Shown in pieces: positions 4,306-61,600 of a stretch of DNA of 64,000 nucleotides (the stretch's first letter is position 1; every line of letters starts with the position of its first letter). The stretch comes from Amia ocellicauda (taxonomy: Eukaryota; Chordata; Actinopteri; Amiiformes; Amiidae). The stretch lies in contig NC_089850.1 in NCBI RefSeq assembly GCF_036373705.1, positions 29,700,733 to 29,764,732 of the forward strand, in the 5' to 3' direction. A model generated the notes under the pieces. The model saw nothing but the letters and a program-made list of their open reading frames with translations, was not told where the DNA came from and searched no databases. Made by a program: the position numbers and the translations under genes.

Positions 4306-7300
4306 GTGTAATGGTCTAACCCACATTCTGGATATTGAGAAATAAATAACACATACTAAAAACCATTAAGCTTGTCTGAAAACTGCAATATATATTGATA
4401 AATGTGTGTAATGCGGTTTTTATTTATTAATATTTGTTGATATGGTCAGTATGATATGGTCCTTACGGTGACATAATCCCTGTCTTAGTAAAAGAGTGTA
4501 CAGATCCCCCGTGGCAGGGTCTTTTGGCGTAGCGTTTTTTGCTCTCCTGGGGTGGCTGTGTAAAGAGGGACACTCAGTGCCGCGTCTGAGAAATGGTGGT
4601 TCAGATCCGAGCAGGGGCTCTGACCACACACGCTACACTGGTCTCCTGTGCTGTCTGGCTCTGTACTGACGTGATGGTGGGTGTGGTGTCCCTGGCAGGA
4701 CACAGATGCAGGAGTTGGAGTTGGAGCCCGAGCCCGAGCCCGAGCAGGAGGACAGTCAGCCCAAACTGGAGGCCGTGCAGGAGGAGCCTGAAGGTAGGCT
4801 ACACACAGGGATTCCTAACACTCGCTGAACACGACTCCAAGTCAAGACCAAAAAGACAGTTTAAGCTTCTGTTATCTACACTGTTATACTTGTACAGAAA
4901 ACCCAATGGTTACTCAAACTGTGCCTGCCACTGTAAACTAGATTAAGATGGCCAATAACATTTTACCTGTACTGACTTTCTATCTTTTGGTTTTAAATGA
5001 GACCCTTTGCGTTTGTTTGAAGTATATTAATGGGAAGAGAAACAATGTATACTTGCCTACCAAAATGTTGTTCTTATTATATGTATAAGCATTGTAACAC
5101 CGTGAGGAGTTGCGATGGTGCAAGTCTGTTTGAATCGGCAGGATCTTAGGGAAACAGACACACTCAGGTGGGGATATAGTGCAAAGGAAGTTAATTTGTT
5201 ATATACAGTGCCAAATGGAAGATGAATCAAGACAAAAGTCTAGCTCCTCTGGACCCGACCTTCACTTCTTTCAGGGCCCCTCTCTATAAACACAAACCCT
5301 AGACAGACAAAATACTAAACACAAAAAGCCAATACACAAATAAACTCACCACTCCAGCCGGCTCCTGCTCGCCCCACAACCAGAAAGCTGCTGCTTCCTT
5401 TCTAACCCAGCTATCTCTTTTCACAGCAACAGAGACATCAGACAAGTCCCACCCTGGAACACTGCCCGACACAGTAGACCAACAGCCACATGCAGATAAA
5501 GATGCCATTCAGACAGACCCTGAACATAAGCCAAAGACCATCCCTGAAGTAAAAGGTGAGACCCAACCAAGGAATCCCCCATACTTCCCCATAATTAAAA
5601 CTAAGAAACTCGGTCATAGATTGAATTATTTGAAGACTTGGGGTGAACATTATGAGCCTTTGAATGCTCTACATGACTAGGTTTAACTGTTGTTTAGGTC
5701 AGCTAATGTATGACTATTGAACAGCTATTGTGTTTTGCTTGTGGTGTATTTAGACATAGCATTACCTCCGGTTTGGGAGAATGGATTCCCAGAGGGTCCT
5801 GAGATGGAGCCCTTCAGACAGCAGGTGAAAGTCTTTGTGCAGGATTGGGAGGCCATGGAAGCCTCCATCCCAGGAGCTTCTCTCTGTCTTGTGGAGATGA
5901 ATGGGAAAACCCCCGAGAGCCTGCTGAGCGAGGCTGTGTCCCACATGGAGAGTAAGTAGCCTTTTGTGGAGTGCAGGAGGCAGGTTCAGTCAGGCATTTA
6001 TATCCTGCTACTTTGGCGTGAAATTAACTGGCACTGTGAAATCACGCTTACTTTGATAGGACCTTTCAAGTACGCAGCCTGGGAGCTGTCTGGGGTGGAC
6101 CTCGATGAGGAGGAGGAGGATGCTCACGCACTGGCAGACATGGAGCAGGCAGAGGAGGAGGGAGAAGAGGAGGAAGAGGAGGAGGCAGAGGTGAGCCCAG
6201 AGAGTTATGATCAGCATAACGTTTTGAAGATCTGCTAGGTAACATGATATGGCTGTAACTCCATTGTTTACATTTGTATAATTTAATTATTGTGCTTTAA
6301 GTTTTAAGTATCATTCTCCTACTTGAAGGAAGAAGGCGGCACTCGTAAAAGGCAGCTTGGAGATACTGCTCACTTCTGCCCGGTCACTCTCAAGGAAAAA
6401 AATGTACTGTTTCCCTGCGCTGATGAGTATGCAGCTAAATACCGTGAAAAAGTCTACTACTTCTCCAGTCCAGAAGCCCGGGAGAAATTTTTGCAATGCC
6501 CAGAGGTGTATGTGTCCCATACCAAGCTGCTGAAAGTAAGATTTTTAAAAATATGATGCCTATTTAGAGTCACAAATACACTCAAACTAGTTAAACTACA
6601 TATATCTGGTCAGAATGTTTCCTTCTTCTTACCTCCTTCATTCTCTCAGGCTCCCCCACTGAGAGTGTTTCTGCTGGGGGCTCGTGGCTCTGGCAAAACC
6701 ACCCATGGCAGATCTCTGGCCAACAAACTGGGCATCTTCCACATCCAATTCAGAGAGCGACTGCAGGAGATGATCATCCGCAAAACCAAGGGCAAAATCC
6801 CATTCGCTGACGAAGCAGAGCCAGAGGAGGAGGCCCCTGAGGACCTGGAGGCTCTGCTGGCCTCTGAGGCCCCCGAGGAGCCGACAGACGCCAAGGCTGC
6901 GGCCACTGCTGTGGATGGCCCCGAGCACCCAGATGCAGAGGTAGGGAGTTCTCGGCCTGGCTCTCATTTCCTGCTGTAGCATTCACCCATGTGTCCAGCA
7001 CTGTAACTGTAAAGTGTGCTGCATTGTGATGGCATTGTAAAACTTTCCCAGAGGCGTAAGAGCTACAGGTTGCAAAAATGAAAAGTAATGACGGTAATTC
7101 AGAGGGGCAGCAACACTGGAAGACCAGATTCAGTGTCCATTTATATCAATTAAATGTACAGTTCAAGCTATTGCATTTTCTGTTATGGTGAACAATTATG
7201 ATAACTCACAATGGGGAATATAAAGAAACATACTTAATAGCTCTGACCTTTAAAGGATTTTCATGAAAACTTGTTTCTACATTGTCTCTGAATTGATGCA

Positions 7301-10300
7301 GAAAGCATTTGCATAACTTAGACAAAAGCTTAGATTTATTTTAATTGTACAAATAAGAATAAGAAATCATGTCCAAAGACAAAGAACCCCACATAACTTT
7401 CTCAAAGAAGAGAGTAACATGACTGAACCTGTCTTGGCTGTTTTCTGTGTTGCCTGTGTGGGGGAACCTTTAAAAGCAGCTGGCCCTCACAGATGAAGAG
7501 GAAGCAATCAAAGCCTACCTGTCTGATGGAGAACCCTTACCCACAGAGATCCTGGACATGGTCTTGCCACAGTGGTGGGACGAGGAGCCATTCAGGTATG
7601 TTTAGAAATGTCCCTGCAGATAAAACTAATCCTCTTATCTAAGGAGCTTGTGGTCTATTTTACAGTCTTATAGATGCAATTGTAATATGATCAAACCAAT
7701 GATCGTTTCCCTGCAGGTCCACAGGTTTTATACTGGAAGGCTTCCCACAGAACTCGGAGGAAGTTCAGTACCTGGCCGAGCAGAGCCTGTTCCCTGACAT
7801 CGCTGTGATCATGTCTCTGGAGGCCACTGATGTGGTGGAACGGCTTCTGCCCCCTCGCTTAGCCCGGTGGAGGGAGAGGCGAGACAGGAAGATGGAGCTG
7901 CAGAGGAGAGTCAGAGAAATCAAGAACAGAATCAGGGTGAGGGTGCAACTACTTTGCTAAGCATCACAATGCATTTGATAGGGCCTTTTGTTTAGAAAAC
8001 ATTTATACTGTCTGCTTTTAGCATGTTTATTTCTATTTCCAAACTAGAACCAGTTGCTAGGGTAAGTGTCATAACTGAGAGGTTACTAGATTTTTTTTTT
8101 TTTTTTAATGCTCCCTTGTGTACAATTTAGGAGGACAAAATTGCTAAAAGAAGAGCTGAACTTTTAGCAGAACAAGCAGAAAAACTGGCAGCTGGAAAGG
8201 TAAAAAGGACATTGATTTATCTATTGGGTTTTATGCTCTTAAAATGTTATAGCTCTTGAAATACATTTGTAGCATAACCACCTGAAACACTTTTAGCTGC
8301 GTTTGTCAAGTACTAATTCATGTACTCAATTAGATTATAGTTTTGACATTTACTGTACTCTAATATATAAAGCTTTGTCAGTTTTTCTTCAAAAGGCATA
8401 AGTCCTAAAATAGCTTTCAATTCATATATATTATTATTTTAATAGAAAATATTATTTGTGGCTTTTAGAGTGTTTGAGAATCAAAAGTAAATAAAGCAAG
8501 GCCATTTATAATGTAGGAGCCACATCAAATACTACACTTACAGCGAGGGAAAAAAGTATTTGATCCCCTGCTGATTTTGTACATTTGCCCACTGACAAAG
8601 AAATGATCAGTCTATAATTTGAATGGTAGGTGTATTTTAACAGTGAGAGACAGAATAACAACAACAAAATCCTGAAAAACGCATTTCAAAAAAGTTATAC
8701 ATTGATTTGCATGTTAATGAGGGAAATAAGTATTTGACCCCTTCGACTTAGTACTTGGTGGCAAAACCCTTGTTGGCAATCACAGAGGTCAGACGTTTCT
8801 TGTAGTTGGCCACCAGGTTTGCACACATCTCAGGAGGGATTTTGTCCCACTCCTCTTTGCAGATCCTCTCCAAGTCATTAAGGTTTCGAGGCTGACGTTT
8901 GGCAACTCGAACCTTCAGCTCCCTCCACAGATTTTCTATGGGATTAAGGTCTGGAGACTGGCTAGGCCACTCCAGGACCTTAATGTGCTTCTTCTTGAGC
9001 CACTCCTTTGTTGCCTTGGCTGTGTGTTTTGGGTCATTGTCATGCTGGAATACCCATCCACGACCCATTTTCAATGCCCTGGCTGAAGGAAGGAGGTTCT
9101 CACCCAAGATTTGACGGTACATGGCCCCATCAATCGTCCCTTTGATGCGGTGCAGTTGTCCTGTCCCCTTAGCAGAAAAACACCCCCAAAGCATAATGTT
9201 TCCACCTCCATGTTTGACGGTGGGGATGGTGTTCTTGGGGTCATTCCTCCTCCTCCAAACACGGCGAGTTGAGTTGATGCCAAAGAACTCGATTTTGGTC
9301 TCATCTGACCACAACACTTTCACCCAGTTCTCCTCTGAATCATTCAGATGTTCATTGGCAAACTTCAGACGGGCCTGTACATGTGCTTTCTTGAGCAGGG
9401 GGGCCTTGCGGGCGCTGCAGGATTTCAGTCCTTCACAGCGTAGTGTTACCAATTGTTTTCCTGGTGACTATGGTCCCAGCTGCCTTGAGATCATTAACAA
9501 GATCCTCCCGTGTAGTTCTGGGCTGATTCCTCACCGTTCTCATGATCATTGAAACTCCACAAGGTGAGATCTTGCATGGAGCCTCAGACCGAGGGAGACT
9601 GACATGGTCTTGTAGCCCATTCCAGCCTTGTGTAGGTCTACAATCTTGTCCCTGACATCCTTGGACAGCTCTTTGGTCTTGGCCATGGTGGAGAGTTTGG
9701 AATCTGATTGATTAATTGCTTCTGTGGACAGGTGTCTTTTATACAGGTAACGAGCTGAGATTAGGAGCACTCCCTTTAAGAGAGTGCTCCTAATCTCAGC
9801 TCGTTACCTGTATAAAAGACACCTGGGAGCCAGAAATCTTGCTGATTGATAGGGGATCAAATACTTATTTCACTCATTAACATGCAAATCAATTTATAAC
9901 TTTTTTGAAATGCGTTTTTCTGGATTTTTTTTGCTGTTATTCTGTCTCTCACAGTTAAAATACACCTACCATTAAAATGATAGACTGATCATTTCTTTGT
10001 CAGTGGGCAAACGTACAAAATCAGCAGGTGATCAAATACTTTTTTCCCTCACTGTAAGTTGTATGGTCTTAATAAAATAGTATAGAGCACGATTGCTACA
10101 AAATGGCATTTGCTGTACACCAGTGGAAATAATGCATACAATACAGACAGTCAAATGCCATTGGTGCTTTGCTGAATGCGCAGGCGAAAGAGGATGAAGT
10201 GGAGGGCAGTGATGAAGAGCAGGAGGAGGAGATGGAGGAGGAGATTGAGGCCTTGATTCTGGAGGAGTTCCCTCCAGACGAAGAGGGAGAGGGAGAGGAG

Positions 10301-13300
10301 GAAGAACAGGAGGTCAATGCCACAGAACGATTGGAAATGGAAATAGGAGACAGGTTTGAAACCGATATCACCAACCTTCAAATCTTGCAGGTACGTCAGA
10401 TACAGAATACTAAGAACGTGAACACATTCACCTTCTCGTTGAGCCTTTTTCAAACATCTAAAACCGCAACAAACTGAACAAAATGCATAACTAAGAAAAT
10501 TATGAAACAGTATTTTGTTTTTATGTTTTAGGATGCCTTAGCTGATCTACACATACCCCAGATATCCATCAGTGCTGGGCGCAAGTCTCATATTGTAAGG
10601 TTCCAGCTCTGTGAGAGACTGAAGTCCCTGGTGGAGAACAGGGAAGCAGTCTTTGAGAAGTGCTACCCACTGAGCATCGGCCTTGCTCGCAAATTGCTGC
10701 GCCATTCATTTAAATACTACAGTGCTTTTGGGTGCTGGGACCCTGTCAGGGTAAGATCTGTGTATCCTTTAATAAATGAGTCAGTAGCATTTGTGCTACC
10801 CTTAAATTAAAACAGTAGCCATTTGGAAGGTCATATTTCAGTCTTCACAATTCTTACCGCTTTTATGATTCAGACAAATTCAATTTGGATAATGCAGTGA
10901 TTCATCATAGTCGGCTGTTTGCCTTCTTTGTTGGTTATTGATCTCTTTATTTGACAGCTCAGTGAAGGGGATGTGATTCAGCCCATTCAAGGTCCCAAGA
11001 ACCCTACTTATCCTGTGCTCTACCGCCAGTTCATTTATTTTTTTGCATCCAAAGACACCCGCAGCAGATTCATCGTGAACCCCATTAAATATCTTCAGCA
11101 AGACAAGCCTAAACCTTCGTTGCCAATCAAAATCGCTGTTGTTGGCCCACCCAAATCTGGAAAAAGCACTGGTAGGATAACATTTTTTTAACTAGAGGTG
11201 TACCTAGAAGTGTATGGACAGAGTATTACCACACATTTATTGAGATTTATTTTGATCAACCTGGGATAGTGTTGTCATCTGAATTTTAGTGTCCAATTAT
11301 TTTGTGATGAATGAGCTACAGTATTTTCTAGGACACATACTTAAGCTTCTGACTGTATATATATAAGCCTTTCTGTTATTTTTATTTCAAAATCATTATT
11401 AGAAAGTATGAGCAAATTTTATTTATAATCTTAATTGTTTTTAATAATTAAAAAAAAAGAGGGTTCATTAATATTTTGACGCACTGTGGAAGTTGAATAT
11501 AGATTGAGTTATAACAAGTATATTTTTAAAGGAATTAAAACAAACTTTTAAAATCTTTCACTTCCTGCTTCGTTACAAATGTCAGTTGCGAGGATGTTTG
11601 CCGGGGAGTATGGCCTGCAGCGGCTGTCCATAGGGGAGGCTATGCGGCTGGTGTTGTCCAATCAGAAACAAACAGAACTGGCCTGTCAGATGAGCAAGCA
11701 TCTCACCAAAGGCTTGACTGTTCCTGATGAACTTGCTATTCAGTGTCTGGAAGCAGCACTAATGGACCTTGTGTGCAGTACCAGAGGGTATGCCTTTGTG
11801 GTTGTATTTTGTAAAACGTATACATCTCTTCCCTCTGCCATTGACTCTAGTGTTCGCTGGTCTAGTAGTGTATGTTGCTGGCAGATGTTCCTCTCTCTTC
11901 CACCCTTGATGTGGCCACACACTTCAATAAATGATTAAGGTTACTTAAGGGCACCGTCTAAAGTACTGTTGCAGCCTTTTTATTGTCTAACTGACCGTCA
12001 CTCATAAATATTGATAGCTTAGTCAATTGAACATAAAACTGATTACTTAAATACATTAACTCATACTTGGGTAGGTCAAACCACAAATTAATATTGTGTT
12101 TTCTCCTTAGAGTAGTGATTCTTTAAATGCAACCATCATGCCCACATAACCTAAACAGGATGTTTTTCTGAAACCACAGCCCTCCTGTGTGACCCCTCTA
12201 ATAATACATATTTTCATGATACGACGCAAGATCAGCCCCCAGGGTGGAATCAATGGTATTCAACCTTGAAATCCTTAAAATACCAGTAAAGCTGCTTGAC
12301 AGTCAACAGCCTTAACCCTGTCTTTGTGTGACGTGTGTCTGCCTGTGTTGGCAGGTTTGTTCTTGATGGGTACCCTATGACAAAGAGGCAGGTTGACCTC
12401 ATGGCAGCCCGAAGTATTATCCCCATCAGGGTGCTGGAACTGCAGGTGGACACTAAGGAGGTTTTAAAGAGAGGCTTAATGGATAAAATGAATGCTGTCA
12501 GGTAAACTCTTCACCTTCCTCTCACCCTGAATGAACACAGGAAAGGTTCCTCCACTGTGTAGGCTGTCAAGCAGTCTACTCCTTTTCATACCATGAGCCA
12601 CCCATTTAAAGTGATTCAATAATATGGGAATTGAGTTCAATGGAATAGTCATTCAGGCCAGTCAGATTTTCCTTCATGGGGAAACCCAATTGAATGAATT
12701 TTCTATAAACATTTCCCCATTAATATCCAAGCCTTTTTTTTTCTCGCCCATTACTTCATGATTAATATGTTTTGTAATAATCTACATATGTATACAAGGT
12801 AGTTACCCACAAAAATAATTCAGGCCAAATAGTAAGCAATATTCATTGATAGGGAATGCAAGTATATACCTAACAACAAAAAGACTGTGCGTCTTCCTCC
12901 ACTGTTGTCTACCTCGCTTATGAAAGGCTGGAATATATATAGTGTCCTACCATGAAAGATTATCCCTCAGAATGGGTCAGGGATCACAAACATGAACAAA
13001 ATGATCAGCTACAGGAGGGAATTAATAATACATAAGAGCATTTACAATAAGACACACCATTTCCCATTGAGTCAGTCAATGCCTCGCTACTGTGTGCACT
13101 TAACAAAGAAGGCCTAATAAGGATCATTAGAGACTGCTTCTGTTACACAGTGAGTCAAACACAAACCTTAAAAATGACACTGAAGCACATATTGACTTAT
13201 ATAAGTAATTTGTATTCCCTTTCAGATCCTATCCAGTTCATGACAGTCCCCAAATTCTCACTATCCGCAATGCCTGCTACAAGCGTGATGTTGAGGCTGT

Positions 13301-17296: not shown

Positions 17297-17734
17297 CCAC
17301 CAGGGGTCCATTCTTCGTACGTGTATAAGCAAGTTATGCGGCTACATTTCAGGATAACCTGGAATAAACTCTGGATTTTCCGTTCTCCGAAGCGAGTTTG
17401 AAGTTCAGCCAGCTCTGGTACCAGGGCAACATGTCCAGCATCTCACCTGCTCCCTGGCAGGTTCACTTGAGGTCAGCTGGATAACAGTCTGAATGGGTTT
17501 AATTCTGCCCAATGACATGACAGCTGACCCCAACGATGACACGTCTTTCTAGCAGACAGATGTGGAGCAATGTTAATAAGGCAAGCTCTTCATCAAGAAA
17601 CAATTCTTACAGATTAAAGATGCTTTAAATCATACAGATGATTATTTTTTTTAGCGTTGCAGGTTTGGTCATCAAGGGATGATAATTCTTGTTTTAATTA
17701 AGACCGAAAATCACTAATGCCAGCCTTGTCACAC
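17297..17734. repeat. Probable degenerate DNA-transposon remnant
   Basis: Starts with AGGGGTCCATTCTTCGTACG, which looks like termini I associate with ISL2EU/Harbinger-type elements of fish. No partner terminus or transposase is visible. Assignment is tentative. Confidence 0.3.
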
Positions 17735-18503
17735 TTATTGAGCTCCCCCTCCTCTTTTATTCACAAAATTGAGTTGAATTATATCCCCTTTGAGTTTTTG
17801 ATGATAAGTGTTGTGGGAATGGGGGGTCATTTTGGAGTGTTTTTGTTACAACATTGCCAGGGGGATTTTTTCCTTTCAAATATAAGTTTAATGCATCAGG
17901 AATCAGCCTGTGAATAGAAATAAATAATCAGATCCAGTTTAAAACTTTATGCTTGAAACCTTGATATTCATAGACATGACAACTAAATATCCCAGATGTG
18001 CCCAGATGGTTTGCTTGATGTGGTCAAATGTAGTAACACATGTGAAAGGGCTGATATAGGGGTAGGCCTACATCAGATTTGACCACGCTGGTCGTGGAAA
18101 AGTGCTTTTTGAGCTGCGCTTGTTACACGTACCAATTGACTGGATATGTGTTTTTAATATTGTTATAAACAAAAATATTCTTCGTAGGGTCTTTAGGTTG
18201 TTTTGTTCAAGTCGCCTTCCGCTGGGCGGCCACTGAGGACATCAGCAGACACTGGAGCGGTTCTGTGCGCACTGACCACTGCACACTTCCGCTGCTCATT
18301 TACTTCCAGTCTCTCCACATCAGTGATAGATATTGGAAATAGTGAAATTGTTTACTAGCACTGTTAGGTTTAAGACAGATGTTCGATTTTAATAGATAAC
18401 GTATTTATATTATTTATCTTTCAAATGACCCTAATTCCATTATCTACCACGGGAGGGCAGTAGTAAGGCTGAACACGCCTGTGTCCGGTTTGTGAGCCTT
18501 CCT

Positions 18504-18720
18504 TTAGTTCAGGGGTGTCACAGCCCTGGAGGGGCGCAGTGTCTGCTGAGTTTTGTTCCAGCCCAGCTCTCTGCTGCTTAATTGGCCTAATTAATCAATT
18601 AACTGGATTAATTGAATCCTTCTCTCCAGACTCTGGAATGTTCTGTGGGTTCAGTGTTTTGAGTCAACACATAATTATTTTTATTTCTTGGCAGACGTCC
18701 TAATCCAGAGCGACTTACAA
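18504..18720. repeat. Dispersed repeat plus inverted L2-type tail
   Basis: 18515-18610 (CCTGGAGGGGCGCAGTGTCTGC onwards) resembles a common interspersed fish repeat. At 18690-18716 the sequence is the reverse complement of the GTCGCCCTGGATAAGGGCGTCTG tail of fish L2-like LINEs and their SINEs. Confidence 0.5.
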
Positions 18721-19064
18721 CATTGTCAGGTATTGGCTATAAAAATACAATATAATAGTTTTAGATAAGGCTTCCTGAGTAAATAATGACATTTATTAAG
18801 TAATTAGGAGTTCCTGTTGGAACAAAAACCAACAGACACTGCGGCCCCCCAGCACTGGTGTCTGACCAGCTTAATTCAACTCCCTGTTGAGCTTTCATAC
18901 TTTCCTTACCATGGAAGACACTTGCAAAAAGTGGATATGAAATATTGGGCGTGAGGAGTTCAACATAACCCCTCATATAGTGTGGTGCCACCTAGTGGAT
19001 ATAGATAATTACACCACCCCTTTACATCAGTAGGAGAGGGGGGTCCTGCTTTCCAAGTCATATA

Positions 19065-19603
19065 TACACCGATCAGCCATAACATTATGACCACCTGCCT
19101 AATATTGTGTTGGTCCCCCTTTTGTCACCAAAACAGCCCTGACCTGTCGAGGCATGGACTCCACTAGACCTCTGAAGGTGTGCTGTGGTATCTGGCACCA
19201 AGACGTTAGCAGCAGATCCTTTAGTCCTGTAAGTTGCAAGGTGGGGCCTCCATGGATCGGACTTGTTTGTCCAGCACATCCCACAGACGCTCGATTGGAT
19301 TGAGATCTGGGGAATTTGGAGGCCAAGTCAACACCTTGAACTCGTGATTCATCAGACCAGGCCACCTTCTTCCATTGCTCCGTGGTCCAGTTCTGATGCT
19401 CACGTGCCCATTGTAGGCGTTTTTGGCAGTGGACAGGGATCAACATGGGCACCCTGACTGGTCTGCGGCTACGCAGCCCCATACGCAACAAACTGCGATG
19501 CACTGTGTTTTCTGACACCCACTGACAGGTGCCATGATAACGAGATTATCAGTGTTATTCACTTCACCTGTCAGTGGTCATAATGTTATGGCTGATCGGT
19601 GTA
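19065..19603 (-). mobile_element. Internally deleted Tc1/mariner element
   Basis: Perfect ends CACCGATCAGCCATAACATTATGACCAC and their complement (19576-19601), flanked by TA. The minus strand encodes transposase pieces: the N-terminal half with VAWSDESR, then a jump to [16 protein letters not shown] and a C-terminal tail in another frame. The block with the second catalytic Asp is missing, so it is non-autonomous. Confidence 0.88.
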
Positions 19604-19778
19604 AATCTCCCCACAAACAGAGTTCAATTGAAGTCTAGGAGAGGTACAGTTTAATTCCTTTATTTATCATTGGGAACTATCCCAGGCACAGTCAGTACAT
19701 ACAATATAATACAAATGCACACAATATCTATTTCTCCTCCCTTTCTCCATCCAAACAATATGGGGAAGCAATAAAAAA

Positions 19779-20127
19779 GGCAAACAGAGTGTTAGGGTAT
19801 ATTGTCAAAAGTGTAGAATTGAGAACAAGGGCAGTGATGTTAAGACTGTACAATGCACTAGTTAGAGCTCATCTGGATACTGTGGACAGTTCTGGGCTCG
19901 ACATTTCAAGAAAGATATTGCTGGTCTAGAGGCAGTTCAGAGGAGAGCAACCAGACTTATTCCAGGTCTGAAGGGAATGTCCTACTGAGAGACTGAGGGA
20001 CTGAACCTTTTCACCCTGGAACAGAGGAGACTACGTGGGGACTTGATCCAAGTCTTCAAAATCATGAAGGGCATCGACCACATCAAACCAGAGGAGCTTT
20101 TCCAGATCAGCAGGGACACACAGACCA
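19779..20127 (+). mobile_element. CR1-like LINE fragment
   Basis: Matches, in the opposite orientation, the 3' part of the LINE at 29781-31258 (KKANRVLGYIVKS..., then ...LVRAHLDT). Truncated at both ends, it lies in the spacer of the large inverted repeat. Confidence 0.8.
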
Positions 20128-20997
20128 GCTGCCACATTATCATAACGCAATTATAACGCAAACATACATAGAATAACCAGTGCAAAATGAAAGCAAGCAG
20201 GTCAGCATAAGAATAAAGCGGACATCAAAGTAGAACCTTTATAATTATAATCGTGCTCAAACTACACACAAACTCAAACCCTGTTAACACGCAACTTGAC
20301 CAGGGGCATTTTCTCTACCAGGTTCAATTGTATTTAGCCTGGCCAAATGTGATTTTCATTGGCAAAACAGCAGGTAAACATGCCACATATGCCAACCTAT
20401 CTATCCAAGTTAAACAATTTCTAGTTGTTTATTGTTGCTTGATGAAAATGATCCGTCCTTCTCTGTCGGAAGGGAAAGTATGAAAGCTGACCACGGCGTT
20501 GATGTACAGGAAGACTCACAAAGCGGCCACAGGCGTGTTCAGCCTTACTACTGCCCTCCCGTGGTAGATAATGTAATATTCTGGAATTAGGGTCATTTGA
20601 AAGATTAATAATATAAATACATTATCTATTACAACCCCAATTTCGAAAAAGTTGGGACAGTATGGAAAATGCTAATAAAAACAAAGAGGAGTGATTTATA
20701 AATGTACTTTGACTTGTATTTAAACAAAAAACGTATAAAGACAAGGTATTTGATGTTTTACCTAATCAACTGCATAGTTTTTTGAAGGTAAATGTTTATT
20801 TTGAAATTGATGCATGCAACACGTTCCCAAAAAGTTGGGACTGGGGCAATTTAGGACTAATAGCGATGTGACAAGTTGAAATAAGAAGGTGATGTGAAAC
20901 AGGTGAGGCAATCGTGCAATCATAGTATATAAGGAGCCTCCAAAAATGGCCTGGTCCTTCAACAGCAAGCATGGGTGAGGCTCACCAACCTGGCAAC

Positions 20998-22103
20998 AGA
21001 TGCGTCAGCGAATAATCCAACACTTTGAGAACAACATTCCCCAAAAACAAATCAGTAGGATTTTGGGCATTTCACCTTCTACAGTGCACAATATGACTAA
21101 AGATTCAAGGAATCCGGTCAAATCTCGGTGCGTAAAGGGCAAGGATGAAAACCACTTCTGAATGCACGTGATCTCCGATCCCTCAGACGTCACGGTCTTA
21201 AAAACCGGCATGAGTCTGTAATGGATATCCTGACATGGGCTCGGGAATACTTTGGTAAACCTTTGTCAGTCAACACCATTTGCCGCTGCATCCAGAGATG
21301 CAAGTTAAGGCTTTACTATGCAAAGCAGAAGCCATACATGAACACTGTCCAGAAGCACCACCGACTTCTCTGGGCTCGGTCTCATCTAAGATGGACAGTA
21401 GCACTGGAATCGTGTTTTGTGGTCCGACGAGTCAACATTTCAAACAGTTTTAGGACAAAACAGCTGTCGAGTTCTCTGGGCCAACGAGGAAAAGGATCAT
21501 CCAAGCTTAGTAGTTCATTTAGATTCCTCCAGTAAAGTACCCAGTTGTATAAATGGGTACAAATGTAAGTCGCCCTGGATAAGGGTGTCAGCTAAGTGAC
21601 GATTAATGTAATGTAATGTAATGTGATCAGCGTCAGGTCCAAAAGCCAGCATCTGTCATGGTATGGGGGTGTGTCAGTGCCCATGGCATGGGTAACTTTC
21701 ACATCTGTGAGGGCACCATTAATGCAGAAAGATTTGTACACATGTTGGAGCAACATATGCTGCCACCCAGACATCGTCTTTTCCAGGGACGTCCCTGCAT
21801 TTTCCAGCAGGACAACGCCAAACCACATTCTGCCTGGATTACAAGCGCACGGTTGCGTAAGCAGAGAGTGCGGGTGCTAGCGTGGCCTGCCTGCAGTCCT
21901 GACCTGTCTCCGATTGAGAATGTGTGGTGCATTATGAAGCGCAAAATAAGGCAATGAAGGTCATGTACAGTTGCGCAGCTGAAGAAATGCATCATGGATG
22001 AAAGGGGGAAAATTCCACTTGCTAAACTTAACCAACTGGTGTTTTCAGTGCCCAAACGCTTAATAAGTGTTATTAAAAGAAAAGGTGATGTTACACAGTG
22101 GTA
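20998..22103 (+). pseudogene. Mariner/Tc1-like transposase remnant
   Basis: Fragments in several frames, readable at 21221-21535, 21417-21500 and 21658-21957. The second Asp (QQDNAKPHS) and the last acidic residue (PIENVW) are preserved, but stop codons and a foreign insertion break the frame. It cannot give a functional enzyme. Confidence 0.85.
21504..21624 (+). mobile_element. L2/SINE-type tail nested in the transposon
   Basis: Contains GTAAGTCGCCCTGGATAAGG (the 3' end shared by fish L2 LINEs and several SINEs), followed by a (TAATG)n tail. It interrupts the transposase reading frame, so it arrived after the transposon. Confidence 0.75.
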
Positions 22104-23099
22104 AGCAGTCGACTGTCCCAACCTTTTTGGAGTGTGTTGCAGTCATCAGATTTGAAATGAGTGTATATTTTCAAAAATAAATTAAATTCACAAAGTAAAA
22201 CATCAAATAATGTGTTAATAATGTGTTTTCAATATATATTACAGGGTGAATTGAACTGTCAAATGACACTTTTTGTTTGTTTTTTTGCATTTTCCATACT
22301 GTCCCAACTTTTTCGGAACTGGGGTTGTAAAATCGAACATCTGTCTTAAACCTAACAGTGCTAGTAAACAATTTCACTATTTCCAATATCTATCACTGAT
22401 GTGGAGAGACTGGAAGTAAATGAGCAGCGGAAGTGTGCAGTGGTCAGTGCGCACAGAACCGCTCCAGTGTCTGCTGATGTCCTCAGTGGCCGCCCAGCGG
22501 AGGCAACTTGAACAAAACAACCTAAAGACCCTAAGAGGAATATTTTTGTTTATAACAATATTAAAAACACATATCCAGTCAATTGGTACGTGTAACAAGC
22601 GCAGCTCAAAAAGCACTTTTCCACGACCAGCGTGGTCAAATCTGATGTAGGCCTACCCCTATATCAGCCCTTTCACATGTGTTACTACATTTGACCACAT
22701 CAAGCAAACCATCTGGGCACATCTGGGATATTTAGTTGTCATGTCTATGAATATCAAGGTTTCAAGCATAAAGTTTTAAACTGGATCTGATTATTTATTT
22801 CTATTCACAGGCTGATTCCTGATGCATTAAACTTATATTTGAAAGGAAAATATCCCCCTGGCAATGTTGTAACAAAAACACTCCAAAATGACCCCCCATT
22901 CCCACAACACTTATCATCAAAAACTCAAAGGGGATATAATTCAACTCAATTTTGTGAATAAAAGAGGAGGGGGAGCTCAATAAATGTAATGAATGCAATT
23001 AATCAAACTAGTGTATTATATACACAGTACTTACAAATAATACAATATTAAAATTTGCAATCAGCAATGCACACTGCAGATTTACTGAAATTAAAGCAA

Positions 23100-23329: not shown

Positions 23330-24230
23330 GTAAGGTCCTGGCAGCTTTATATATTTTTGTTTGACATGACTGTTTTAAGGATTGTGACTTTACAGAGCTT
23401 GGATGATTTGAGAAAGTGATCAAAAATGTGGAATTTGAAATTCAATAGGTTATTACGAAACCGTTTAAAGCAATAATAAAAAAAAATGGACGACAACTAC
23501 ATGTTGCCAGACAAGATTGGCATGGCGCTCGGTTTGAACCAGCGCAGCAGCAGCAGCCTTGAGTGCCGGAGGCAGGTCTGCTGGCTGGGTTCATGTGGTG
23601 GTTTGCTAGTGGCAGTGCTGGCTGGACCGCTTATAATTAATGTTTTAACGCAAATACTCTACATAACAGAACCGTAGTTAACTTTTGTAAAATGTGCTTT
23701 GCGTTGTTTTTGACTTGGGTTCAAACATGCCACGGAATAACATGTCAGAAAAGGGTAGTGATATGTACTATAACCAAATAAATATACACTGACAATATCC
23801 CAGTAGGCTATATAAGTTACAAAGGCTATCTTACTGAGTGCTGTAAAAAGTGCAAGAGGGACAATAAAAATGTCATGTTTACAAGTAACCTTACAGTAAT
23901 GGCTAAGATCCTCGGAGAATAATATTGTACCACGCTAATGCAGGATTGGGAGTCTGATATGTTGCAGTTAATGGTGTTTTGATGTGTAAGATCTGGATAA
24001 CGCATTTCAGAAATGTTTAATTGTGATGCTAAAACGTCTGCCGCTTCTGCCATTTGCAATCCGGTAGAAATAAGCGCTGTGCTTCTCAGTATAGCCTAAG
24101 TGTACGTTATCTTCAGTACAGCTGGTAAGATGGGTTAGTCTAGGATGATTGTCCCATGTTCTTCAGCCCTTTAAATTGTATATCTTGTACTTGTTGGAAA
24201 ATAAGGAATCAACCATTTCTGCATTACAGG

Positions 24231-27200
24231 ATGGCACAATCTCCACAAACCCCAACAACCTCTCATTTCGCCCTTTATTCCAGTGCCCACAAGGACACAA
24301 TTTTAAGCAAATTTGAGGAACTTAGGAAAAAGGATTTGTTGTGTGACATCACTCTGATTGTTGAAGATGCCCAGTTTAAGGCCCACAAGGCCTTGCTGGC
24401 TGCCAGCAGTGAGTATTTCTCTGTGATGTTTACTGGTGAGGGACAAGTGTGCCAGTCTATCTACATGCTGGATGGGATGGCTGCAGACACTTTCAGAGCA
24501 GTGCTGGAGTTTATCTACACTGGGCATGTGTCTGTGGAGAGGAGCACCGCAGAGCAGCTCCTGGCGATGGCCCACTACCTGAAAGTCGTTGACCTTGTGA
24601 AGGCTTACACCGAGTTTCAGAGTATGCACAGGCCCAGTCAGGATGGGAAATCGGATTCACACCAGAGAGGAGAAAATAATGAGGAGGCTGTTAAACCCAA
24701 ACGCAAAAGAGGTCGGCCAAGGAAGGATGAGGTTTTGACAGGGGCATCAAATGCTGCAGCTCCTGGTTCAAGTAAAATAAAAGAAGCCCCAGGGATCAAT
24801 AATCTAGTGACTTGTGTTCAGGAGGCAACAGTGCAACCGGTTATAGAAGAACCTATAGAAGAGAACAGAGAGAGTGAAGACGTAGCAGATTCTGATGCCC
24901 ACATGGATCCTTCCAATGACAAAGATGTGGACTATGACCCCAAATTGGAGGGGAAGCTGTGTCCCCGTAGCCGCTACAGCAAGCGCAGGATAAAGCCCCC
25001 GGTGAAATTGATTGGCTTTCGGCTGGGAGAAGATGTTGCTGAGCAGGGAGAGCCTGGGAAAAGAGGGAGGAAGAGGAAATATCCCAAAACTGAGGCCCGC
25101 TGTGAGGATTGTGGGAAAGTCTTCAAAAACCATTTGTTTTTAACAATCCACCAAAGAACACATACTGGTGAGCTTTAGAGCAAAGACGTATTATTTTTCT
25201 CTCAAGTACTTCAAAATTGTACCAGCTGTTACAAATATTCTGTGTCTTAATTGGTTATTTCTAATGAAATTATTTTCTACTGTCTGTAAGCATTAAGATG
25301 CTACAGCCACACAGAAGTAAGGTAGTCTGATACTGAAAACTAAAATGAAAATTGCCCTGTACAGGAATAATAGGTCTATTTAATGAAAATACGACAGCTA
25401 AGAGAGAACTGTACAATGTTTGACCAGACTGCTTGCTAAATTATTTATTTATTGTTAGGAATTATGTAGCTGTTTCTGATATGTATTGAGTGATCACATA
25501 AACCAAGATTTAAATCAATTGATATAGTGAAAAAGGTATGGATTGTTTTAGAGAGCTGTCCTGTATGAAATAGGCTTGTTAACCCATGGTGTGACTTAGT
25601 AAATGAATCATTGATCAAAAACAACATGTCAAGGGCAGAATTACTTTCTTTCAAATATTAAATATGGGGATACTTGTATAGAATACAACCGGTTTCTTGT
25701 TATCCTTTTCCTGCAGGGGAAAAGCCTTACAAATGCTTTGAGTGTGGAAAAGGGTTTACTCAGAAGCATACCTTGCTGGTGCACCAGCGCATGCACACTG
25801 GAGAGAGGCCCTACATCTGCACCGTGTGCTCCAAGGCCTTGTCCACTAAGCACTCGCTGCTCGAACACATGAACCTGCACACAGGCACGATACTCCCTCT
25901 TATACTGACAATGTTTAGTTTGGACCTGCAAGTCATTAGCCAAGGAAACCAACAGACCTGGGTTAAATAGTTATGGTTTAGAATTAGAATTAACCATTCC
26001 TTGAAAATATAGAAATGCAGTCTGCAGAAAGTACCTGCTATTGGGATTACACTATGTCTGTTAACAGAAGGTACTTCAGTCAGACTTCATTCTCTTTAGA
26101 CCTGGGACTAATCAGCAGTCTGTTGATAAATAAATTAATGTTAATATTCAACAATCCCCAAAAGTATTATGCTTTGTCCCTGGTTGTTTATTAATCTAAA
26201 TTTCACCCCAGAATAATACTGAAATGTATTATGTGTAATGGTTTTGTTGTATATGACCATCTGTGCTTTTCAGATCAGAAATCTTTCAGCTGTGATCAGT
26301 GTGGGAAGACTTTCAGTCAGAGAAGGCAACTGAAGAGTCATTACCGAGTTCACACAGGTAAAACCGCCACAGCACTGTAGAATACCTGTAAACGATTAAT
26401 AAAAAGTCAGGTAGTGTCCAAGGAAGACTGCATCATTAAAGTATTATATGAAAAGGTTTTTATCAGATGAAAATCTACAAAGCCAAAAATACAATGAGGT
26501 TAGATGTGTAATCAATGTTATAATATGAAATGTATGATCAGAACATACATCTTTTTAAAAGTCTTACAAGCTTATTGCATTTCTTTACCTATATACAGGT
26601 AAGCCCTTACCAGAGTGTGCACAGTGCCATCGAAGGTTCATGGATGCTGCTCAGCTTAAGAAGCATCTGAGAACACATACAGGTGATGCCAATGTTTTCA
26701 TTTGTGTTTCAGAAAGACGTTCGATTCTGTAACCATTTTTTTCTCTCTAAGTTTGATTCTTTGTTAACCAATGTTTCCAACACTTAACACTGTTTCTCAT
26801 ACTGTCCTCAAGGTAATCAGCTGGTTACTGGGGAATTAATTGAACATTACTGGTGCAAAGTACAAATCGCTTCACTGTGCCTTCAGAGATGAAACTGATT
26901 GTTTTTCAGTGCTTGATTTGTATGTCGTCATGTATGATGATTATCATGGTTACATATGTATTTTGCCACAAGCATTCAATGAGTTATATTGGAATTTGGT
27001 GAATTAACAGTTTGTTATTATTAATTCATTGACAAGATATTATTTTGCAATGTTTCTAAGGTACGGTTTGTAACTCTTTGACACTGAGCTGTGCTTTTGT
27101 CTTCATATCAGGTGAGAAACCATTCACATGTGAGATCTGTGGGAAGTGTTTCACAGCTAAGAGCACACTGCAGACCCATATCAGAATCCACAGGTAAAAG

Positions 27201-29780: not shown

Positions 29781-31258
29781 TCTTAAGAACATAACAAAGT
29801 TTACAAACGAGAGGAGGCCATTCGACCCATCGTGCTCGTTTGGTGTCCATTAATAACTAAGTGATCCAAGGATCCTATCCAGTCTATTTTTAAATGTTCC
29901 ACATCGCTGGGGAGTTTGTTCCAGATTGTGATGACTCTGTGTGAAGAAGTGTCTCCTGTTTTCTGTCTTGAATGCCTTGAAGCCCAATTTCCATTTGTGT
30001 CCCCGGGTGCGTGTGTCCCTGCTGATCTGGAAAAGCTCCTCTGGTTTGATGTGGTCGATGCCTTTCATGATTTTGAAGACTTGGATCAAGTCCCCACGTA
30101 GTCTCCTCTGTTCCAGGGTGAAAAGGTTCAGTTCCTCAGTCTCTCAGTAGGACATTCCCTTCAGACCTGGAATAAGTCTGGTTGCTCTCCTCTGAACTGC
30201 CTCTAGAGCAGCGATATCTTTCTTGAAGTGTGGAGCCCAGAACTGTACACAGTATCCAGATGAGCTCTAACTAGTGCATTGTACAGTCTGAACATTACTG
30301 CCCTTGTTCTCAATTCTACACTTTTGACAATATACCCTAACATCCTGTTTGCATTTTTTAGTCCACATAGACTCCTAGGTCTTTCTCATGCGTTACTTTA
30401 TCTAGTTCTATTCCTCCCATAGTGTAATTATAGTGGACATTTTTGTTACCTGCATGTAATACCTTGCACTCGTCCACATTGAATTTCATCTGCCAGGTGT
30501 CGGCCCACAACTGAATATTATCTAAGTCCCTTTGAATAGCCTGTGTTGTCGAGATTGTATCTGCTGAGCCACCTATTTTAGTATCATCTGCAAATTTGAC
30601 AAGTTTGCTAACTATACCAGAGTCCAGATCATTAATATAGATTAGCAAAAGCACAGGCCCTAGTACTGATCCCTGTGGAACTCCACTAACACCCTCACTC
30701 CAGTTAGAAGCGACTCCTCTAATCGACACCCTCTGTTTCCTATACATCAACCAGTTCATAATCCATCTACTTACAATACCCTGAATGCTACAGCTTCCAA
30801 TCTGAGGATCAGTCTTTGGTGTGGAACCTTATCAAAAGCTTATTGTAAATCTAAGTATATCATATCATATGCTTTCACGTGATCTACAGCTGCAGTTGCA
30901 TGTTCAAAAAATTCTAATAAATTAGTAAGACATGATCTGCCTCGTCTAAACCCATGTTGACTATCTCCAAGAATATGGTTTTCATTAAGATGCTCCTCTA
31001 TTTTCTGTCTAATAATTTTTTCCAACATTTTACACGTGATGCAGGTGAGACTGATTGGCCTGTAATTTCCTGGCTCAGTTTTGTCCCCTTTCTTGTGGAT
31101 TGGATGACATTTGCTGTCTTCCAGTCAGTGGGCACATCCCCTGTTCTAAGTGTCATTTGTAATATTTGAGTTAGCGGCCTATAAATAATGTGCCTCATTT
31201 CTTTAAGTACTGTTGGAAAGTTTTTCATATGTAGTTGTGTACTTTTAGAGGACATTGT
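29781..31258 (-). mobile_element. 5'-truncated CR1-like LINE
   Basis: On the minus strand, reverse transcriptase fragments read KGTKLS..., GDSQHGFRRGRSCLTNL, GVPQGSVLGPVLL and KFADDTKIGG, the last holding the FADD catalytic motif. These lie in different frames with deletions, followed by the C-terminal thumb region and a 3' end GGTCGAATGGCCTCCTCTCG just before 29781. The 5' half including the endonuclease is missing. CR1/L2-type assignment rests on these motifs. It fills nearly all of the zbtb24-ppil6 gap. Confidence 0.88.
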
Positions 31259-58651: not shown

Positions 58652-61600
58652 TAATCAAAGGGCCAAGATACAAACCTATAACCTCCTTAAGGACGGCTTC
58701 TGACCTTGCTTAATTGTAGAAAGTAGACAAAGCTATCAAACCCTGAAGATGTTTGATAATGATACTTCAGCCATAATGAGGTGTTTCTGGTTTAAGAAAC
58801 TGCTTTCATGACAGCAGAGTCATCTCGCATCGTAGTTATGGGGGCGTTAAGTAACCAAGTGTCTCTGAATTAGACTGCTCAGGAAGCACACCAAGCTCAA
58901 TTTAAGTGACTGAACGCTCTGCTACATTCGAGAATTAAGCAACTGTAAAAACGGGGCTGAATAATGCTTTGCTTTTTGATATTTCAGGGCTTTTAGTTGA
59001 TGAAATGTTCTCAGATAAGGATTTCATGATTACTGAATCCCTTAAATGAGGAATGGAAACCATAGACAATATTTTCACTCAGCAGCCCTTACCAGGTGTG
59101 TTGTACCAGCAACACGCAGTGCTGAACAAACAACTGTCCATCTGGGTCCACTCACGCTGATCACTGATAAAAAAAGGCTTAGCAGTGCTCTGAGTGGCTC
59201 ATGAAGAGTGGAAGTGAGCAGACTGTTCACTGGGCCTCTGAGACACATCATTGTATCACATGACACTGCAGAGCGAGGGGGCGAGACTGTGCCCTGGCTC
59301 ACAAGGTGACCGCTGTCCTCCGCGGGGGGCAGGGCTCAGTACCTGTGGGGGAACTCCGCTGGGACAGGCTGGCTTCAGTGTCATACACCAGGCTCTGCAG
59401 CTCATCGACGCGCTGGAAGGCGTCAAGTTTCAGGCTGCGTTCTTGGGAAAGCTGGCTTCTCACCTTACAGCAGCAGACACAGCACAGCACTTACAGTTCA
59501 TCGCACCAACTGTATTACTGCAAATAACTAACTGGATATAGTGTTGTATCATAAAGTCTACAGTGGGGGAAAAAAGTATTTGATCCCTTGCTGATTTTGT
59601 ACGTTTGCCCACTGACAAAGAAATGATCAGTCTATAATTTTAATGGTAGGTGTATTTTAACAGTGAGTCAAAAAATGATTGTTGTTGCTATCCAATAGAA
59701 GGGGACCACCAAAGATGACCTTACAACTACATGTTTATGTCCTGTACAGACAGGATCGAATTTAGCAGATGTGTGTCTTCAAAATACAATATGGATGCAA
59801 CTCCAGAACTAGAGAGAGTGTGTTTAGAGATCACCTGCAAACTAGGTCACAGGTATTCCATGTCTGAATCAATAGAGCAATACCCCAGAGCAAAGTAGAT
59901 TTGGAGGCATCAAACTTTTGCCATCTTTATATCCAATCACAGTATGTGTCAGTCCTCTGTGATGTCTGTTTGATCTGCTGTGTCTATGGTGCAGACTGCA
60001 GAGACATGCCAGAAATAAAGTAATAGTGTGTAGTAGCTCTTCAGATAGAAAGCAGAGCACCTCATATGGTGGCTACAGTACAATGTGTTGACTGTTACTT
60101 ATAATATACCCCATTTTTGTATATGTGTTTATTTAATTTTGTACCAAACCAAGCACAATTAATTTAAAGCATTATGTGAATTAGGTTGATTTTATCCCTT
60201 CATATTTAAATACAAGTGCAACAAATTCTAAAAGTCCCAGTCAAAAAGTCTTATGACTGTGGTGGGAGACAGGGATTTCAGCAGCACTAGCAGGGGGATT
60301 TTCCATCCTGAACTGTGCATCAATCTTTAATGGACCTTTCATCTACACCCCTGCAGCTCCCCTCCCCTGACTGGGAACCAGATAAACAATCGCTTTTCTT
60401 TTGCATAACACCGCCATGAAAAATGAGCATTACTCCGTCTAATCGTTCAGTGGAAAATCCCAGCAAAACATGATGCAGCTGCAGACCATTTTAACTGTTA
60501 GTCGACCCACAGCAGACCAGAGTTATTGAAATAGCGAATTATTTTTATTATTTGGTTATAGTGCTTCAAGGTGTTGTTTGTTTACCATCAAAAGCACCTC
60601 AGTAATATCTGGATTTTTGTTCCCAGTGGTTTTACGTAGGAGAACAGAGCTCAGCTTGATTGATCCAAGTCTGACATCACCACCTATTCGATAAGGGATC
60701 CATCTGAAAGAGAGCTCAGTCCAGATCATTCTCTGCCGGTATATGTTTGGGAACGTTGAGGCCAGTATTGCACAACGCCAGGTTGCACAACTGCACAACT
60801 TACAGCATAACCTATGGTTCCAAGTTGTACTTTCACTATACGCATGCATTGATTGTGTTCTTGCATAGTAAGCAAAGTGCACCTTCAATCTTAGCCCTAA
60901 AAAGACCTCAATGACAGCATTTTCTTCGCAAAGCTGAAGGAAGATATCGTGTATGTAGAGCTGAAGATCATACTCATACTATATGCAGAGCAACAGCACA
61001 GTGTGAAGGAGGCGGGGAAATATAGAAAGACATCTGTCCACCTGTCTTATCTCCTTGTCGGTCCGGAGGTGCTGGAGCTGGCTGACCCTGGCGCTCCTCT
61101 CCAATTGGTCGGTGAGTGAGCGCAACTGCAGCTCCCTGTGCTCTGCGTCCATCTGCAGCTGCTCCAGGCTGGCGGACCTCATGCTGTCCAGGTGCTGCCG
61201 GCTGCGTGCCTCCTGGGCCGAGCGATGCTCCACCTCCTTCAATAGCTGCCTCTGTGCAAACACAGTCGCCATGGCCACACATCAGTCAAGGCAGCCATAC
61301 AACGCCCAGGGACACGTGAGGTGCACAGACTCTGTTTGCTGGGCCGGTGCCGAGTGGGGAGGTACCTGTTTCTCTAGCTGTCTCTTGGTGTTCTTGTACT
61401 CAGCCTGGCACTGGGACAGGGCCGTCCTCGCGGCCTCCAGTTGCTGCCGGAGCAGAACGCCCTCCTCCTCGGCCACCATCCTCTGCACCAGACTCTCCTT
61501 CTGTTGCCTCTCCGCAGCCTGGGGGCACACAGAGCGTCAACACAGGGACCGGGAGAGGAGCAAGAGATATCCAGCAAACACCCCCCACCCACACACAGCT

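Follow-up and report, generated by a model that had tools for sequence, protein, structure and literature searches.

The stretch of Amia ocellicauda DNA analysed here, hereafter the window, is 64 kb long (C1:29700733-29764732, contig NC_089850.1) and carries a long inverted repeat between two genes on the same strand, which we take from synteny to be AK9-like and ZBTB24-like. The 2 arms of the repeat face each other across a spacer; the right arm is split by a Tc1-family transposon, and a miniature inverted-repeat transposable element (MITE) is present on the left side only. The arms are composed of pieces of 2 dispersed repeats, designated X and Y, and a third putative repeat, V, adjoins the right arm at its inner edge. 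Positions of all these features are collected in Table 1. As described below, the inverted repeat is a real inverted copy, well preserved and made up of transposon debris, and it looks like the product of a known kind of rearrangement and not like a new transposon.

Table 1. The inverted repeat and adjoining features, in window positions (SINE and LINE, short and long interspersed nuclear elements)
Feature	Positions	Strand	Remarks
Repeat X, old, dispersed	17300..17995	+	Dispersed matches; donor context outward of the left arm; ~106 bp missing at 17725/17731
Left arm, presumed donor of the copied tract	17731..18483	+	X remnant 17731-17995, then Y from ~18019
Repeat Y, old, dispersed	18019..18983	+	Interrupted by the MITE; on the left continues past the inner arm end
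MITE, presumably hAT-like	18510..18866		Left arm only; another repeat fragment inside, ~18671-18756
Spacer	18909..20467		Tc1-like 19062-19606, fragment 19772-20136, dispersed repeat ~20300-20420
Repeat V, adjoining the right arm on its inner side, proposed priming site	20418..20527	-	~46 bp similar to Y, inverted
Right arm, inner part (Y), putatively copied, inward of Tc1	20528..20631	-	Pairwise and multiple alignment
Defective Tc1-family element	20632..22327	+	Inserted at TA; nested insert ~21508-21621, presumably SINE/LINE-tail-like
Right arm, outer part (Y, then X), putatively copied	22328..23092	-	99.1% identical to the left arm over 22328-22987
BTB + C2H2 exon, presumed ZBTB24-like gene	24156..25178	+	BTB PF00651, 3.6e-29; downstream of the right arm

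Extent and identity of the arms

A self-comparison of the window, of the kind proposed in a preliminary description of this DNA, gave the pair of arms as the strongest inverted self-match. Segment 17731-18391 aligned in inverted orientation with 22987-22328 at 99.1% identity (661 columns, with 5 mismatches and one 1-bp gap), which bears out the near-identical facing arms of that description. The description is also right that a Tc1 element, inserted at a TA, divides the right arm in two, the flanking dinucleotides being found at 20630-20631 and 22328-22329. The uninterrupted counterpart that it placed in the left arm at 18361-18364 does exist, but some 27 bp away, at 18390-18391 (plus strand).

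The outer match had thus been recognized, but not its limits. Position 17731 is not the full left edge, and the right arm continues to approximately 23092, the same repeat family (X) running beyond 22987. Segment 22988-23092 is X sequence found on the right only, the left arm lacking about 106 bp there, and the left edge at 17731 therefore looks like a deletion scar. Of 24 loci retrieved, 11 matched at least part of 22985-23092, and in 8 of these 11 the match ends at 23091-23092. Also overlooked were a 10-bp indel, the falling identity of the arms inward of the Tc1 element, and the MITE in the left arm. In this inner region the homology goes on, pairing 18391-18508 with 20631-20500 and then 18876-18910 with 20502-20468; it includes the 10-bp indel, and identity is only ~80% from 18484. 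Segment 20528-20631 differs from the left arm by 2 mismatches in pairwise alignment and agrees with it at 90/94 in a multiple alignment, which places the indel otherwise.

Comparison with other copies of the repeats allowed most differences between the arms to be assigned to one side. The fetched Y copies carry bases at the 10-bp indel, from which we conclude that the left arm lost them. By the same comparison the differences at 17734, 17867 and 18181 and a 1-bp insertion near 18217 also look like changes on the left side, with 18415 leaning likewise; at 18400 it is the right arm that changed, and 18184 and 18213 are ambiguous. Both arms lack bases near 18437 that most fetched Y copies have. 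Beyond the arms no inverted match pairs the 2 sides of the spacer, which contains only short inverted ends within single elements and is not duplicated. An assembly artefact, in which one arm would be a misplaced or duplicated haplotig, is hardly credible: near-identity taken alone would suit it, but each side has private changes (the MITE and the 10-bp and ~106-bp losses on the left, the Tc1 element on the right), the flanks differ, and the contig is 64 Mb long.

Dispersed repeats in the arms and at the inner joint

Repeat searches were made in the assembly of the source genome, which comprises 385 contigs and 988 Mb, so that all comparisons are within one genome assembly. With left-arm segment 17735-18400 as query, the best 40 of 152 candidates were scored and gave 50 matches. 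Besides the match of the left arm with itself there were the right arm, at 99% identity, and 48 further matches at 72-92%, the majority of them inside 17735-17995 and the remainder inside 18015-18400; none of the 48 crosses 17996-18014. Among these 50 scored matches, the X-Y junction near 17995 was present only in the 2 arms. Relative to that position, X copies span from about -860 to about +690, and because they extend ~690 bp beyond it, X must be cut there in both arms. One X copy (L015) aligns contiguously to 17300-17995 at 71%, with 106 extra bases; on the right side of the window, X occupies 22723-23092. A Y copy (L036) matches 18983-18875 at 88% over 109 bp and then 18511-18295, without the MITE. 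The single frame searched from the X, Y and V coding regions, 17702-17914 in one arm, gave no Pfam match, an exact pattern from the arm gave 0 matches in viral_contigs, and an Rfam search of the window gave no match at gathering scores.

Foldback transposons and those with long terminal inverted repeats (TIRs) consist of inverted arms around a middle, and the 2 long, mostly repeat-derived arms flanking a spacer recall such elements. The preliminary description had offered either a foldback family or an inverted segmental duplication, and our results support the latter. In 20 fetched loci (L009-L028, 7.5-9 kb each, with matches at E up to 1e-8 and up to 6 per locus shown), X or Y occurred as inverted arms in none, although wider pairs would be missed in loci of this size; the proposed search for further paired copies therefore came out against such a family. 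The X and Y copies seen in fetched loci are fragments with local identities of ~62-92%, and the 50 matches to the left arm (best 40 of 152 candidates) include only one 99% pair. Furthermore, the arm edges lie inside X and at the Y/V boundary. We detected no target-site duplication at the outer edges, as 80% of 300 randomly drawn pairs of positions scored at least as well as the best candidate; this test is a weak one, as it starts at 4 bp, is blind to a 2-bp TA, and scored 2 real Tc1 TA sites no better. A Foldback or long-TIR transposon is therefore very improbable. We also rejected X or Y as the terminal repeat of a single transposon, since neither was paired at the 20 loci and X copies run ~860 bp before and ~690 bp past 17995.

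Several other arrangements of these repeats were noted. Adjacent Y and X pieces that face each other in opposite orientation are present in L009 (4051-4718; C1:29328000-29337000) and L011 (3876-4152; C8:6386000-6394500), with the X pieces of both starting near window position 17930; they may represent a separate composite repeat. L025 contains X parts in opposite orientation, and L023 contains, at 545-969, a palindromic element of ~420 bp whose strands are 83% alike. At C18:26992162-27006716, Y-containing segments are regularly spaced, ~7 kb apart, which suggests a tandem array.

The inner joint was examined through the distribution of mismatches between the arms. Their density changes at 18484 (range 18476-18484), with a likelihood ratio (LR) of 42.9 that was reached in 0 of 5000 permutations; mismatches number 5/657 in the outer block, 8/120 in the next and 6/29 in the last. 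The Tc1 insertion point was considered as the boundary of a gene-conversion tract and rejected, since the change-point lies ~95 bp further in and the LR at the Tc1 site is 28.4. Inward of 18484, the inverted homology (with the left flanks joined across the MITE) scored 56, and none of 4923 segments drawn at random from the window scored above 26; homology across this point is therefore not due to chance.

The 2 sides of the joint resemble different repeats. A search with segment 20400-20580, in which all 19 candidates were scored, gave 19 matches, 14 of which are further Y copies, and 11 of these (L036-L046) were examined. The left inner flank matches 8 of the 11 at 28-30 of 34 bases and the other 3 at 11-21 of 34, whereas the right inner flank matches all 11 at only 12-18 of 34. 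Locus L012 matches 20418-20513 at 81%, spanning the inner arm end, and shows the opposite pattern to the Y copies, agreeing with the right inner flank at 30/43 and with the left at 12/34. This sequence is our repeat V, with an end at ~20513-20527. Within a 46-bp block at the joint, the right arm agrees with V at 40/46 and with Y copies at 31-37/46, and the left arm is of the Y type.

Origin of the inverted copy

From its sequence context the left arm looks like the donor, because X extends there outward as far as 17300 and Y reaches inward to 18983 or beyond. At neither of its ends does the right arm have such a context, since X stops at ~23092 and Y gives way to V at ~20528. We favor, with a probability of about two in three, a recent, local, templated inverted copy that was primed by fold-back at V and entered by the Tc1 element afterwards. 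A break at V would have exposed a 3' end, which could have folded back and annealed to inverted, ~80%-similar Y sequence at 18484-18508, just outside the MITE. Synthesis from this end would have copied the left arm outward for ~0.87 kb, through Y, across the X-Y junction and into X, and the new end would have been ligated at ~23092 to the opposite side of the break, upstream of the presumed ZBTB24-like gene, leaving the loop as the spacer. Insertion of Tc1 into the copy and loss of 10 bp and ~106 bp from the left donor would have followed. We infer the break, fold-back, synthesis and end joining from the present arrangement, and the direction of copying from the repeat context. What we observed directly is an X-Y junction present, among the matches scored, only in the 2 arms, their 99.1% identity, a two-sided repeat context on the left only, a sharp switch at 18484, a different inner flank on the right, and a Tc1 element on the right only.

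The main rival to this scheme, which we regard as unlikely, is an old inverted duplication of X-Y in which arm-to-arm gene conversion has recently homogenised the outer 750 bp and left the inner 50 bp unconverted. It would account for the tiered mismatch frequencies given above and for an old MITE confined to the left arm, and conversion has been argued to maintain inverted repeats in nematodes, in the account given in PMC1803023. Yet the 2 sides resemble different repeats in their inner flanks and, with less clarity, in the inner block, so that there is no need to read the inner homology as an old duplicate; its ~80% identity may compare V with Y and is then not clearly a measure of the age of the arms. 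Nor does the right arm have family context beyond either end. For the same reason the absence of the MITE on the right is weakened as proof of an old duplication, the right inner sequence resembling V and not a Y copy. The preliminary description had left the choice between recent origin and conversion; we incline to recent copying, because the inner homology, which looks older, seems to connect 2 different repeats.

Another replication error, either of the microhomology-mediated break-induced replication type or by multi-step template switching, might have produced the arms with no fold-back primed at V. Such events are documented (PMC2621351, PMC7954356), and in favor of this view the outer joint shows no evident long homology; but a replication error alone does not predict ~80% inverted homology exactly at the inner joint, and we consider it rather improbable.

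Several points weigh against the fold-back copy that we prefer. V is based on 46 + 43 bp and essentially one other locus, L012 (overlapped by L035), and in the 46-bp block it beats the best Y copies by a small margin (40/46 versus 37/46). In addition, an inner flank of the left type is missing from 3 Y copies, and because L038 and L039 are near-duplicates the set of 11 contains fewer than 11 independent copies. The outer joint is not comparable with the donor, which has lost that stretch. The scheme does not account for the different arrangements of X and Y pieces at L009, L011 and L025, and the divergence clocks of the Tc1 element and of the arms overlap (see below).

The proposed event has counterparts in other systems. 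In human fold-back inverted duplications the spacers measure 766-70,466 bp, and 3 of 21 sequenced junctions were at homologous LINE or SINE repeats (PMC3907307). They share with the present case a single-copy spacer and inverted homology at the joint of spacer and copy, provided in some instances by dispersed repeats in opposite orientation; they differ in being large and found in patients, often with terminal deletion and dicentric intermediates, whereas the copy described here is <1 kb, interstitial and rejoined on the same chromosome. In yeast, a double-strand break induces inverted duplication near natural inverted repeats, and repeats annealed at the break prime synthesis (PMC10622511). 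Annealing of inverted repeats near a break is the primer proposed here as well, but the yeast events were described in mutants and gave dicentric products, and ours is known from its sequence scar alone. Template switching between inverted repeats (PMC8604942, PMC7954356) likewise copies a nearby inverted template, in short events seen as mutation clusters, compared with ~0.87 kb here. Inverted repeats of nematodes and of the human Y chromosome resemble the present one in having near-identical arms around a spacer; for those, the argument is that the arms are ancient and that conversion maintains their likeness (PMC1803023, PMC3723533), whereas here one recent copy suffices.

Fold-back duplications are known, in the accounts cited, from patients and yeast mutants; if our interpretation is correct, the window adds one from a reference genome that is small and interstitial, with the donor, probable priming homology, loop and later events all legible at one locus. 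It would also illustrate that transposon debris arranged as a long inverted repeat can be mistaken for a transposon. The position upstream of the presumed ZBTB24-like gene makes possible effects on expression worth a look. The broader proposal, that diverged inverted transposon remnants prime kilobase-sized inverted repeats by promoters in the germ line and that this one is a transcribed hairpin affecting ZBTB24, is a long shot.

Inserted elements and neighboring sequences

The Tc1 element of the right arm has inverted terminal ends that are 92% identical over 51 nt, and its Pfam matches are DDE_3, above the cut-off, and HTH_Tnp_Tc3_2, slightly below it. A genome search gave 3052 first-look candidates, and none of the matches listed covers query positions 875-988; an exact pattern from the Tc1 end gave 0 matches in viral_contigs. 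The nearest listed copy, ~640 kb away at C1:30364619-30365978, is 97-98% identical, with 28 differences in 1360. With 3 further copies as reference, 10 substitutions in 1304 are private to the Tc1 element of the window and 14 to this relative, and 2 are ambiguous. The arms differ by 7 substitutions in ~750 columns, which compared with the 10/1304 private to Tc1 gave a Fisher p of 0.34; rates per lineage are indistinguishable. The insertion of Tc1 after the copying, as the preliminary description had proposed, is supported, because the presumed donor is without Tc1 and not because of the clock, which is in no conflict with this order.

The MITE has imperfect inverted ends. Its search gave 937 first-look candidates (40 scored), and many matches end at query positions 6 and 362. 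It differs from its copy at L048 at 50 of 318 positions, by which we judge it to be old. At C7:7307414-7326106, segments that contain this MITE are regularly spaced, ~4.6 kb apart, again suggesting a tandem array.

Within the spacer, a second Tc1-like family is represented at 19062-19606 by an internally deleted element that has an HTH match and 33-bp near-perfect ends; stretches 91-98% identical to it are present in L016 and L023. The fragment at 19772-20136 is 95-97% identical, in inverted orientation, to 29996-30360, which lies 10 kb away and adjoins a frame matching RVT_1 (reverse transcriptase). The dispersed repeat at ~20300-20420 has matches of 75-94%, in close clusters at several loci.

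With regard to the neighboring genes, plus-strand frames 6557-6976 and 11552-11935 gave AAA and ADK matches below the Pfam cut-offs. A PDB search with the zinc-finger exon that follows the BTB exon returned ZBTB24 among many zinc-finger proteins, not as the top match. Elsewhere in the window, 8536-10059 is a Tc1-like element with inverted ends of ~207 bp (94% identical) and DDE_3 and HTH matches in a frame of 239 codons, and a 109-bp stretch at 59559-59667 is 95% identical to part of the ends of this element.

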